This document shows, one piece after another, positions 6,104 to 14,680 of a DNA stretch of 21,701 bases (position 1 is the first letter of the stretch; each line of letters begins with the position of its first letter). Source of the DNA: a virus; IMG/VR virus record IMGVR_UViG_3300036944_000447, positions 1 to 21,701 of that record; one strand, given 5' to 3'. The translations under genes and the position numbers were made by a program. The notes below the pieces were generated by a model that saw nothing but the letters and a program-made list of their open reading frames with translations, did not search any database and was not told where the DNA came from.

Positions 6104-6946
6104 TTAAGCGAAGGCAATGTCTTCGGCAATGTTCCACAACTCTGAGTTGATGCGGATGTTTTCTTTCACACTGTTAACAGGGCGAGCCTTACGGGTCACA
6201 CCATTGGGGTGCTTCTCAGACAAGCTCTTAACAAATGCATTGCCACGAACAACACCTTCCTGAATGCGGTTGAACACAGTGAAGGCATCCATGTAGTTGT
6301 CTTCATAGCGAGAGATGTGCAACACATCAGCAATGGTTTGAGGAGTGGCATACACACCAGTGGTCTGCTCTTCGAGCATGTCCCATCGTGTCTCAACACC
6401 ACGCTTAGCCATCAACACAGACTGGTGTGGGTCAAGAGTGACACCACGCAACTTCTCAAGACGCTCCATCATGGTGGGCAATGTAGCCACAGTGTTGCGG
6501 AGCATCTCTTCAAAGCCATTCAATGCCTTGCTGTGATAGATGCGAGACTGGAAGCCATCACCTGCAATGATGCCATTGGAGCAGATGAAGCGGAAGCAAC
6601 CTGCAAACAACTTCACAGAGCCTGAGCCATCGTGAGAGTTGTACAAAATAATTTCAGGACGAAGGTCACCAGTGCCAAAGTCAATGTCCCATGTCTTAGC
6701 GAAGGCTAACATGTGGGCTGAGTGAGCAGGGTTGAGGCTACGGCTACGCTTCTGTGCTGCTTGCACTGGTGCATATCCATAGTCTTGCATCACTGGGATG
6801 ATTTCGCTGGTGTTCAACGACACATAACGATCTGTAAGTTTCTCAGCCTTGGTTGTGCTGAAAGCGGCAGGGGCAAGCTGTTGAATACGCTCTGCAGAGA
6901 GAGCAGAGTTGTTAGCATTGCGAGAGAAGATGAGGTGTTTAGCCAT
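6104..6946 (-). CDS. DUF932 family protein
   Basis: A 280-residue protein of the DUF932 family, common in phages and plasmids and of unproven function. Recognisable features are the central VSLNTSEIIPVMQDYGYAPV segment, then RPEIILYNSHDGSGSVKLFAG and FRFICSNGIIAGDG, followed by a helical C-terminal half. The start is placed at 6944-6946, after the SD hairpin TTCCTAAGGAA; an upstream in-frame ATG at 6982 has no SD. It is the first gene after the strong promoter at 6994-7023, so it is probably produced at high level. That agrees with its unusually regular, optimised-looking codon use. Confidence 0.85.
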   Translation of the reverse strand: MAKHLIFSRNANNSALSAERIQQLAPAAFSTTKAEKLTDRYVSLNTSEIIPVMQDYGYAPVQAAQKRSRSLNPAHSAHMLAFAKTWDIDFGTGDLRPEIILYNSHDGSGSVKLFAGCFRFICSNGIIAGDGFQSRIYHSKALNGFEEMLRNTVATLPTMMERLEKLRGVTLDPHQSVLMAKRGVETRWDMLEEQTTGVYATPQTIADVLHISRYEDNYMDAFTVFNRIQEGVVRGNAFVKSLSEKHPNGVTRKARPVNSVKENIRINSELWNIAEDIAFA

Positions 6947-6952
6947 GATGTT

Positions 6953-6963
6953 TTCCTTAGGAA
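6953..6963 (-). promoter_or_regulatory. palindromic SD hairpin, copy 1
   Basis: Reads TTCCTAAGGAA in the transcript, so the SD AGGAA is the 3' arm of its own small stem. It lies six bases before the DUF932 start. One of seven related elements in the left block. Confidence 0.6.
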
Positions 6964-6973
6964 GGTTGATGAG

Positions 6974-6986
6974 TGTCAGCAACTGA
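6974..6986 (-). repeat. short hairpin in the DUF932 leader
   Basis: GTCAG-TTG-CTGAC forms a 5-bp stem with a 3-base loop at the very start of the predicted transcript from the 6994-7023 promoter. A 5' terminal stem of this kind often protects mRNA from decay. Related bases occur at 7574-7597. Confidence 0.45.
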
Positions 6987-12582: not shown

Positions 12583-12641
12583 GGTTGTGGCAACATTGCC
12601 GTTGAGGTTTCAATTGTAGCGATCAATAAAGACCATGTCAA

Positions 12642-12887
12642 TCACAGGGCTTTTCTGCTACCAACAAGGGTTTTACCCTTGAACAACAGTGCTTCATCAT
12701 AACAACCCATCCACTGTAATGCTTCAGCTTTGCTGAGAGTGTAGTGAGATTTCTTGAAACCAACACCAGTTACTTTGTAACCAAAAGCTTTACACAAAGC
12801 CAGTTTGATTTCATCCTCCCAAAGGAGGACTAATGCTGTAGTGCTTAGCACTATTGTGGTGAGACTGAGAATGTCGATTGCTGTCAT
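12642..12887 (-). CDS. small membrane-anchored protein, first leftward gene
   Basis: An 81-residue protein with an N-terminal membrane segment at about 4-22 (IDILSLTTIVLSTTALVLL), then a basic soluble part with FGYKVTGVGFKKSHYTLSKA and EALQWMGCYDEA. The topology is probably a short periplasmic or cytoplasmic tail on one helix. SD AAGGAAC lies before the ATG and the giant hairpin at 12899-12985 is directly upstream. As the origin-proximal leftward gene it is probably made first after infection. No family is recognised. Confidence 0.7.
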   Translation of the reverse strand: MTAIDILSLTTIVLSTTALVLLWEDEIKLALCKAFGYKVTGVGFKKSHYTLSKAEALQWMGCYDEALLFKGKTLVGSRKAL

Positions 12888-12898
12888 TTTTGTTCCTT

Positions 12899-12985
12899 CA
12901 TGTCTTTCATTTAACTAAGAAAAGAAACTATTTCCTTTTCTCACTAAAGTGAAAAGGATAGTTTCTTTGTTAAATGAAAGACATG
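12899..12985. repeat. giant hairpin in the first leftward leader
   Basis: Outer arms CATGTCTTTCATTTAAC and GTTAAATGAAAGACATG are a perfect 17-bp pair. After a 5-base bulge, an inner AAAGAAACTAT/ATAGTTTCTTT (11 bp), then CCTTTT/AAAAGG and CAC/GTG continue toward a 4-base loop. The total is near 37 paired bases over 87 nt. It lies directly upstream of the SD of 12642-12887. As RNA it would be an RNase III-type duplex; as DNA, a cruciform. Confidence 0.85.
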
Positions 12986-13008
12986 GGATTGGGCGTATGT
13001 ACGCAGAT

Positions 13009-13077
13009 CTTCCTATATTTAAGCATTTTTTAATGCCAACATAGTTGTCATAAAAATGCGATTATAAATATAGGAAG
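13009..13077. repeat. long AT-rich inverted repeat
   Basis: CTTCCTATATTTA (13009-13021) and TAAATATAGGAAG (13065-13077) are perfect 13-bp arms. GCATTTTT (13023-13030) and AAAAATGC (13052-13059) add an inner 8-bp pair. A local alternative GCATT/AATGC exists in the left half. The AT-rich arms beside DnaA boxes could act as the unwinding element, and the right arm holds the -10 of the leftward promoter. Confidence 0.75.
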
Positions 13078-13095
13078 TTAAGAGAGGGTTATCAA
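13067..13095 (-). promoter_or_regulatory. candidate main leftward promoter
   Basis: On the minus strand -35 TTGATA (13090-13095) and -10 TATATT (13067-13072) are each one base from consensus, spaced by 17. The -35 lies inside the DnaA box at 13089-13097, so DnaA binding would block or tune it. Start near 13060. Confidence 0.6.
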
Positions 13096-13155
13096 CAGGT
13101 TATTGTTGAGCCATGTCATTGGGTTGTTGATAACTGGGTTGGTTGCTGTGGATAA
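13089..13155. other. DnaA-box cluster
   Basis: TTATCAACA at 13089-13097 (plus strand), TGTTGATAA at 13125-13133 and TGTGGATAA at 13147-13155 (the last two are minus-strand boxes). The third is an exact match to the consensus TTATCCACA and the other two differ by one base. Three boxes in 67 bp in a gene-free region point to host DnaA binding, for replication or control. Confidence 0.7.
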
Positions 13156-13222
13156 CTTAGGATGGGGTATGCTTTGTTTTGCTTAAATTTTAGGCAATGA
13201 AGGATGGTGTAGATGGGGTAGT

Positions 13223-13237
13223 ATAACTTTTAGTTAT
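13223..13237. repeat. small inverted repeat ATAACT-TTT-AGTTAT
   Basis: A perfect 6-bp stem with a 3-base centre; looser symmetry continues outward (GGTA ... TACC). It could be an operator between the origin and the rightward genes. Confidence 0.4.
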
Positions 13238-13416
13238 AGATATACCACCTTCCATTCACCGGACTTTGCTTAAAAAATAGGCAACTATTTTCCGTTTTTT
13301 GACATTGAAAACCGATTTTGAATCAGTATTCAGAGATCTTCTAAGTCATTGAATTCATTGAAGATTCTTTATTCTTGAGTTGAATGCATTCTATGTCTTT
13401 GATTCACCTAAGATCT

Positions 13417-13462
13417 GCAACGCATTGCAACGCATTGCACTGGCGCAACGCTGGCGCAACGC
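13417..13462. repeat. iteron-like tandem repeats
   Basis: Two copies of GCAACGCATT (13417-13426, 13427-13436) are followed by two of TGGCGCAACGC (13441-13451, 13452-13462). All four share the core GCAACGC at nearly regular spacing, 10-14 bp apart, on one face of the helix. Such repeats usually bind an initiator or repressor. Confidence 0.7.
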
Positions 13463-13463
13463 T

Positions 13464-13491
13464 GGGGTGGCGGGGGCACAGGGGGGTAGGG
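13464..13491 (+). other. G-quadruplex motif
   Basis: Four G-runs of 4, 5, 6 and 3 bases with loops TGGC, CACA and TA, directly after the tandem repeats. The surrounding sequence is moderate in GC, so the run is compositionally distinct. Confidence 0.7.
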
Positions 13492-13611
13492 CGCTATATG
13501 TATATGGCCTCGTACAAAAATCAGGAAAAATAGACTTGTTAACCAAGGCTGGTTTACAGCAGCGCCCACACCGCCATAGAAATAATTAGGGACAGATCAA
13601 CATGCACAATG

Positions 13612-13640
13612 CTGCACAATCTCGACTGTTTTATGTGCAG
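13612..13640. repeat. hairpin CTGCACA / TGTGCAG
   Basis: Perfect 7-bp arms with a 15-base loop. The left arm is part of a direct repeat TGCACAAT that occurs twice (13603-13610 and 13613-13620). Confidence 0.45.
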
Positions 13641-13668
13641 TATATTGAACAAAAATAGATGTGTACAC

Positions 13669-13680
13669 CCTAGCGCTAGG
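13669..13680. repeat. 12-bp perfect palindrome CCTAGCGCTAGG
   Basis: A perfectly self-complementary 12-mer in non-coding sequence, suited to a dimeric regulator. Confidence 0.5.
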
Positions 13681-13725
13681 CAGCTACATAGATGTTAACA
13701 ATCTTCATTAAAGTTTCATGCACTT

Positions 13726-13756
13726 GATACTTAAAAGTTCTGATTAGATACTTAAA
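13726..13756. repeat. direct repeat pair GATACTTAAA
   Basis: Two exact 10-bp copies (13726-13735 and 13747-13756) start 21 bp apart, two helical turns. A partial third (ACACTTAAGC) is at 13796. They lie upstream of the rightward promoter candidate and could bind a regulator cooperatively. Confidence 0.45.
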
Positions 13757-13881
13757 CAGCAACCTATAGGTAGCAGCATATCGCCTATTGTCGGACACTT
13801 AAGCTTATCGTTTCCCTATACCCCCACATGGACCAGAGGCTAGGGAGGTACAACATATTTCATTCTTTCCAAAAGAAAAGC

Positions 13882-13909
13882 TTGACATTGTTTTTAATGT
13901 GTGTAAAAC
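13882..13909 (+). promoter_or_regulatory. candidate rightward promoter
   Basis: An exact -35 TTGACA (13882-13887), 16-base spacer and -10 TAAAAC (13904-13909, four of six matches). It is the best plus-strand promoter match between the origin and the first late genes. Confidence 0.45.
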
Positions 13910-13925
13910 TACCCGTACCTGCACC

Positions 13926-14072
13926 ATGTATGTATTTGACATACAGGCGATACGAAGAAAAAGTATAGGCTACCTTCCGGCTACGGGTAAAGAAAAGAGC
14001 TTGCAATCGGCTGCTGAAGAGAAAAGACTCGGAGAGAACGACATAGGGGCCACTGTGTTGTTCTTGCTCTGA
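13926..14072 (+). CDS. possible 48-residue ORF in the late leader
   Basis: Begins MYVFDIQAIRRKSIGYLPAT and continues GKEKSLQSAAEEKRLGEN to LFLL. The sequence reads like a protein (a basic strand, then a charged helix), but there is no clear SD, and the frame sits only about 10 bases after the predicted transcription start. It may be a remnant or leader peptide. No homologue is recognised. Confidence 0.3.
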   Translation: MYVFDIQAIRRKSIGYLPATGKEKSLQSAAEEKRLGENDIGATVLFLL

Positions 14073-14398
14073 ATACTGGCAGTGGTAACACCTTACACTG
14101 ACCAGACTAGACTTGATGTGGGTACTTGTTAAAAGCTGTTGCTAAAAGGGTGGGCTAACAACAGCCATAGATGAACACATCCCTTATGGGCTTTCTAGGT
14201 GTATGTTCTAGATATTAGTGGTAGGTAGCTGTATTTCACTATGTGATATGTACAGAGTTCTTACAAGTAATGGTAGTTGTTTCTTCACAGAATCTCTACC
14301 GTCAACACTATAGACATACATTGGGATAGGTTGTTATGTGTAGCTATAAACGCTACCATACCACCTTAGCTAGGCTATGTGTGTTAGCATAAAGCATT

Positions 14399-14680
14399 AT
14401 GAACTTATACACCAGACAAGAGCTAGAAGACAGAGGTTTAACAAACACATATCCCTACAGTGTATTTACACAGGCTTCATTAGCGTTACACAGGGGATAT
14501 GTAGACAAGATGCATTTGTTTCACAGTGATGTCTATTACGTCAGAGCATCCTTGGAAAAATATACAGGATATGTATTTCCATTAGACAAGGTTGAAGAAG
14601 CTATGAGAGCTGAAGGATGGAAAGAGCATAGACACCTACCAAGGAAGAAACAACATGGCAACAAAGAAAAGCACTGTTAA
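14399..14680 (+). CDS. hypothetical protein, first rightward gene
   Basis: A 93-residue protein, MNLYTRQELEDRGLTNTYPY then SVFTQASLALHRGYVDKMHL and FPLDKVEEAMRAEGW, ending in a lysine/histidine-rich tail. The helical, charged pattern suggests a small DNA-binding or regulatory protein, but no family is recognised. There is no good SD before the ATG, which may mean poor or regulated translation. It overlaps the next gene by 26 nt. Confidence 0.65.
   Translation: MNLYTRQELEDRGLTNTYPYSVFTQASLALHRGYVDKMHLFHSDVYYVRASLEKYTGYVFPLDKVEEAMRAEGWKEHRHLPRKKQHGNKEKHC

Follow-up and report, generated by a model that had tools for sequence, protein, structure and literature searches.

The 21.7-kb virus record analyzed here, referred to at its full length as the window, belongs to the HMO-2011 podophage group and carries a long hairpin directly before its first leftward gene, which raises the question of whether this structure acts in an mRNA leader, as folded DNA, or hardly at all. 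The terminase and portal genes share 66 to 72% DNA identity with those of HMO-2011 and Roseobacter CRP phages, and an integrase gene is present in the window. HMO-2011-type phages are described as dominant and widespread in the ocean (PMC9038755); the literature searched gave no account of how their replication or early transcription begins. In a 58-kb relative (G001), the late genes lie to one side of a control region of ~1.3 kb, which is followed by a co-directional block of ~22 kb that encodes a T7-like primase-helicase, PolA, a gp2.5-like SSB, ribonucleotide reductase, and ThyX. In the window, an ADP-ribosylglycohydrolase-family gene (PF03747; 5157–6047) lies among the leftward genes, and a DUF932 protein gene (PF06067), also carried by G001, is found at 6104–6982.

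Two mirror-image hairpins precede the first leftward gene

The following features of the window make up the hairpin region.

12642–12887, minus strand: first leftward gene, 81 aa; unrelated genes take its place elsewhere among genomes that carry the element
12893–12898, minus strand: SD-like AAGGAA, flush with the H1 end at 12899; ATG at 12887
12899–12985, minus strand: hairpin H1, 87 nt, with a 17-bp outer stem, a one-sided 5-nt bulge, a 10- to 11-bp stem, a 2-nt bulge, a ~8-bp stem, and a loop
12916–12920, plus strand: the 5-nt H1 bulge, which lies on the 5' arm in the plus-strand reading; 3 to 8 nt in relatives, always on the same side
12986–13008, minus strand: linker, beginning ATCTGCG (leftward), then a variable part able to form a 4-bp mini-hairpin
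13009–13077, minus strand: hairpin H2, with a 13-bp outer stem, a 5-nt bulge on the leftward 5' arm, an 8-bp stem, and a conserved tip
13033–13051, minus strand: H2 tip stem, leftward ATGACAAC-NNN-GTTGGCAT, near-invariant, with an A·G mismatch

The outer stem of H1 (arms 12899–12915 and 12969–12985, 17 bp) and its inner stem (12921–12931/12958–12968, 11 bp) are both perfect and, with the ~8-bp stem above them, bring the total to about 35 pairs. The hairpin that an earlier, sequence-only reading had claimed at 12899–12985 is thus real, and it ends, as that reading had it, at the SD of the 12642–12887 gene. Folding also bears out the claim that the stem is beyond chance, with an MFE of −42.9 kcal/mol for 12880–13000 vs −15.4 ± 3.1 kcal/mol for shuffles (z = −9.0; 0 of 200 shuffles); the opposite strand of the region has a similar folding energy. 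When hairpins are ranked in the window and in the 58-kb relative, H1 is the strongest and H2 the second, and the two are the sole strong hairpins of the genome.

H2 (13009–13077), and with it the joint conservation of H1 and H2, was overlooked in the earlier reading. The hairpins are spaced by 23 nt and are mirror images of one another, H2 having its bulge on the 5' arm when read leftward and H1 when read rightward; further, an H2 covariance model matches the H1 of one relative (L256) on the opposite strand (E ≈ 0.001). An RNA copied from one strand would have no need of bulges on opposite strands. The segments flanking H2 (12986–13001 and 13078–13087) are highly variable even among genomes with identical H1 and H2 and are possibly diversifying or mosaic, and the linker retains an alternating purine-pyrimidine pattern.

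The hairpin pair is a single-copy element of one phage clade

The exact outer arm of H1 is found in 37 viral stretches, 33 of which carry the partner arm at the identical 70-nt offset, and comparison of the flanks reveals that conservation runs on into H2 and the linker. Relaxed patterns and the H2 covariance model together enlarged the family to >50 IMG/VR contigs, all from HMO-2011-like phages and with the H1/H2 pair at the same position. A search based on the GP88-family gene (PF17338; 11861–12565, minus strand), which serves as a marker for the clade, added two further divergent lineages with different stems (58–69 bits). In each of the 14 element-bearing records searched, H2 is single-copy; searches of HMO-2011 and MW202701 found that both lack it. 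On the GP88 tree the presence of the element needs only two label changes, which fits one clade with loss. A mobile hairpin of the REP/MITE type was rejected on the same grounds, as there is one copy per genome, at a constant place and in one clade.

Relatives of the element were found in none of the INPHARED phages, PLSDB plasmids, or GTDB genomes, and a GP88 scan of the GTDB genomes found neither host nor prophage. The H2 tip motif scanned alone gave, among the matches listed, only chance matches outside the known set; an Rfam scan of the window returned 0 families at the gathering cut-off and only miRNA-like chance matches below it. No description of the element was found in the literature searched, a search whose reach excluded most subscription journals. 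The element is undescribed in the collections and papers searchable here.

The folds are retained while the letters change

RNAalifold predicts 56 pairs, 36 of which show both-sided changes with pairing retained. In H2, 98.5% of alignment cells are paired (vs 78% when shuffled and 44 to 54% when slid), the covariation score is 0.472 vs 0.127 for shuffled alignments, and 16 of the 28 pairs have both-sided changes with 0 showing one-sided variation only. Nearly all distinct H1 sequences in the main alignment retain 16 to 17 outer pairs, a one-sided bulge of 3 to 8 nt, and the inner stems; one refolds into a longer stem. Entire stems have been swapped in some lineages with all 17 pairs intact and the one-sided bulges persisting, and in L098 and L104 the arm sequence of H1 is wholly different and the fold is retained. 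At the other extreme, the near-identical stems of L245 and L248 differ by a single Watson–Crick pair, and H1 is identical at 87 of 87 positions across many genomes in which the adjacent protein is just 65 to 85% identical. Compensatory change in homologues had been set beforehand as a check on the hairpin, and such strong retention of pairing excludes the refuting outcome, no conserved pairing. The element formed by H1 and H2 is real and strongly selected, and since its folds are retained while the letters change, it does something important.

The composition of the pairs bears on whether DNA or RNA is folded. Among 28 distinct versions of H2, G-U pairs make up 0 of 618 pairs on the leftward strand and 1 of 621 on the rightward strand; the value for the leftward strand of H1 is 1.5%, and mRNA-leader stems of neighboring early genes in the same phages, a rough control, have ~9%. 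RNA structures normally tolerate G-U pairs, and their near absence from H2 therefore leans toward DNA, although template-switch correction of inverted repeats could mimic this scarcity. The distinct versions of the linker mini-hairpin contain 20 leftward G-U vs 6 A-C pairs, an excess that leans toward RNA but that an alternating purine-pyrimidine sequence gives as well.

First genes and promoters around the element

At least nine unrelated small first genes follow H1 across the genomes, and near-identical elements precede different first genes in the pairs L024/L025, L041/L043, and L098/L105. The gap between H1 and the SD is 0 to 2 nt in most lineages; in others H1 ends 3 to 5 nt from the start codon, so that any first-gene mRNA would carry H1. 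The unrelated first genes favor a module independent of one gene's product and fit the edge of an origin and a reusable leader alike. A candidate leader peptide, MKEQK*, which overlaps the start codon of the window's first gene, was discarded as not conserved.

The promoter that could be recognized in this region lies on the other side of the first gene.

12613–12641, minus strand: early promoter (TTGACA-17-TACAAT) on the downstream side of both H1 and the first gene; kept in relatives without H1/H2

This near-consensus promoter (12641–12613) precedes the GP88 gene, and its leader contains a small GGCAAT..TTGCC stem-loop conserved across relatives. A promoter before GP88 scoring 12.6 to 14.5 bits was found in 25 of 52 distinct loci. 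In 50 of the 52, our scan, which covered sigma70-like sites, found none of ≥11 bits that lies within 1.4 kb and is aimed at the element; the two exceptions have such sites at −1088 and −1190. Because no sigma70-like promoter was found close upstream and the early promoter is downstream, the main early transcript, as predicted from these sites, probably starts after the stem and excludes H1, and on the same evidence the earlier description of H1 as the leader of the first gene made is not supported. In three relatives without H1/H2 (L232, L247, and L254), the homologue of the 81-aa gene comes with a consensus promoter of its own; no promoter was found near this homologue in two others (L233 and L257). 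Candidate conserved promoters, TATAAT in the H2 bulge or TGTGGA/TTGATA with TATATT, are missing in other lineages and overall are no better than shuffled sequence. A sigma54 box (TGGCAT...GC) was rejected on its GG-GC offset of 13 rather than 12, and an intrinsic terminator on a count of 0 in 12600–14500 on both strands, with no T run.

The element lies in an origin-like intergenic region

Beside H2 lie short repeats resembling DnaA boxes.

13089–13097 (plus strand), 13125–13133 (minus strand), and 13147–13155 (minus strand): DnaA-box-like repeats TTATCMACA

This motif occurs four times in the window vs 0.44 expected, with three of the four at 13089–13155. In relatives the boxes lie ~55, 77, 103, and 124 bases before H2, and in most lineages the sites are 21 to 26 bp apart and end close to H2. 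The earlier suggestion of a position near the origin fits these phased repeats. Origin activity, strand folding in vivo, and a recognizing protein are inferred. Upstream of H2 in L097, L099, L106, and L107 there are repeats of AAAAGTGTTACAGGGTTTTCCC instead of DnaA-like boxes, as if the initiator had changed and H1/H2 had not. Adjacent tandem repeats of TGCAACGCAT and CTGGCGCAACG occupy the noncoding region 13416–13465.

In the mechanism that we propose, the phased boxes beside H2 would first be bound by an initiator, which could be the DnaA of the host or, where other repeats are present, a protein of the phage, after which the AT-rich tract from H2 to H1 would melt. The separated strands could then fold into H2 and H1, with their bulges on opposite strands, and the folds would be recognized as a loading or priming signal for the phage T7-like primase-helicase, PolA, and SSB.

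Folded DNA or structured RNA

Our preferred reading, held tentatively, is that H1 and H2 are halves of one single-copy cis element in an origin-like intergenic region that acts as folded DNA. It draws on retention of structure over sequence, with new stems in further lineages, the near absence of G-U pairs from H2, the DnaA-box-like repeats that end near H2 in most lineages, the mirror-image bulges of the only two strong hairpins in the genome, the at least nine unrelated first genes, the replisome genes, and the lack of a nearby sigma70-like promoter feeding the element; the pRN1 stem-loop and the RSF1010 iterons with ssiA/ssiB offer precedents (PMC4234260). Against it stand the abutment of H1, throughout the lineages, on the SD or start codon of the gene that follows, the leftward G-U excess of the mini-hairpin, the lineages without DnaA-like boxes, and the relatives without H1/H2, which evidently replicate; template-switch correction could also yield stems of Watson–Crick pairs only. 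We know of no need for hairpins among T7-type primases. That a mirror-image pair of DNA hairpins, folded as single strands, is where a group of dsDNA tailed phages initiates replication or has a working non-sigma70 promoter seems to us doubtful, and the precedents for folded-strand hairpins of which we are aware come from some plasmids and N4-type promoters, with none for the HMO-2011-like group.

A close rival, and a quite possible one, is a structured mRNA 5' leader serving as an RNase III site or translation switch, in which a transcript from upstream of H2 would carry both hairpins and the mini-hairpin between them. Its long bulged stem resembles RNase III substrates, H1 is necessarily part of any first-gene mRNA and lies within a few nucleotides of the SD or start codon of genes that are unrelated to one another, and the linker mini-hairpin retains leftward G-U; this account is set against the missing upstream sigma70-like promoter and the strong early promoter downstream, the missing G-U in H2, and the unrelated first genes, which speak against control by one product, and it leaves the mirror arrangement of the bulges without explanation. 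The element may also have a dual role, in which the DNA and RNA readings both apply. It is improbable that the element replaces the sigma70 promoter of the first gene with one used by a phage-modified polymerase, an alternative sigma, or an N4-like hairpin-promoter system: consensus promoters appear in L232, L247, and L254, which lack H1/H2, and none was found with H1/H2, and the near-invariant H2 tip is a 7- to 8-bp stem with a 3-nt loop, but L233 and L257 likewise have no nearby promoter and the element is single-copy. No polymerase was found among the large late proteins searched, and the 1779-aa late protein of G001 (L110:45-5384), considered as an N4-type vRNAP, has no PHROG or PDB match. 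An antitermination RNA like the put of HK022, acting on the 22-kb early block, would account for two bulged stem-loops heading a long co-directional set of genes, but put differs in size and sequence and the early promoter here is downstream, which makes this very improbable. We give equally little credence to a palindrome of little function kept perfect mainly through template-switch correction; both-sided Watson–Crick changes, sometimes of one pair in near-identical stems (L245/L248), speak for it, but bulges that correction should erase stay on the same side, the H2 tip is near-invariant, and the position is fixed within one clade.

Comparison with known systems

With its long double-stranded stem just ahead of the SD of a small early gene, H1 resembles RNase III sites of the T7 type and the hairpin in the lambda N leader. 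Here, in contrast, an upstream early promoter is not recognizable, a second covarying hairpin is present, G-U pairs are few or absent, and cleavage is putative. The put RNA of HK022 consists of two bulged stem-loops downstream of an early promoter (PMC9378689); ours also head a long early gene block, but the element is larger, has another sequence, and lies upstream of the early promoter.

Replication of pRN1 requires a stem-loop of ~100 nt, the structure of which is conserved more than its letters (PMC4234260). The pRN family of Sulfolobus further resembles the present case in the intergenic location of its stem-loop and in encoding primase and helicase activity (PMC4234260), whereas pRN1 has one stem-loop and no iterons and we find two hairpins beside DnaA-like boxes with a putative origin role. 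The pRN1 enzyme combines an archaeo-eukaryotic primase with an SF3 helicase, and the protein here is of the T7-type Toprim/DnaB-like kind. Phased repeats lie beside two hairpins here as in RSF1010 oriV (iterons and ssiA/ssiB), in which the hairpins are exposed on single strands, as ours may be; our hairpins are longer and differ in sequence. Phased repeats beside the hairpins occur in most lineages of our element, with other repeats or none in some. A T7-like primase-helicase is encoded, a candidate for the hairpin-specific primase that an origin of this type would use. RepA, RepB', and RepC were returned by no family search, these searches not being aimed at them specifically.

Integron attC sites share the imperfect palindrome with one-sided bulges, and ATTTAAC...GTTAAAT in the lineage of the window fits RYYYAAC...GTTRRRY. 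The attC assignment was rejected since the core is not conserved (ATTTAAT in the L084 type and ATTCATAA in the L098 type); the element also differs from attC in being single-copy and in having no cassette array.

The ~180-nt single-copy element, with folds kept by compensatory change in an origin-like region, offers a concrete, testable entry point. Should the folded DNA be the active form, ordinary tailed phages would join the replicons known to use stem-loop origins or hairpin promoters; if the element acts as RNA, it would represent a new type of phage leader common to unrelated genes. Finally, two more distant relatives carry another long-stem hairpin of 63 to 65 nt with a different sequence at the corresponding place (L251:3360-3422 and L261:3349-3413), which is possibly a remote version of H1.
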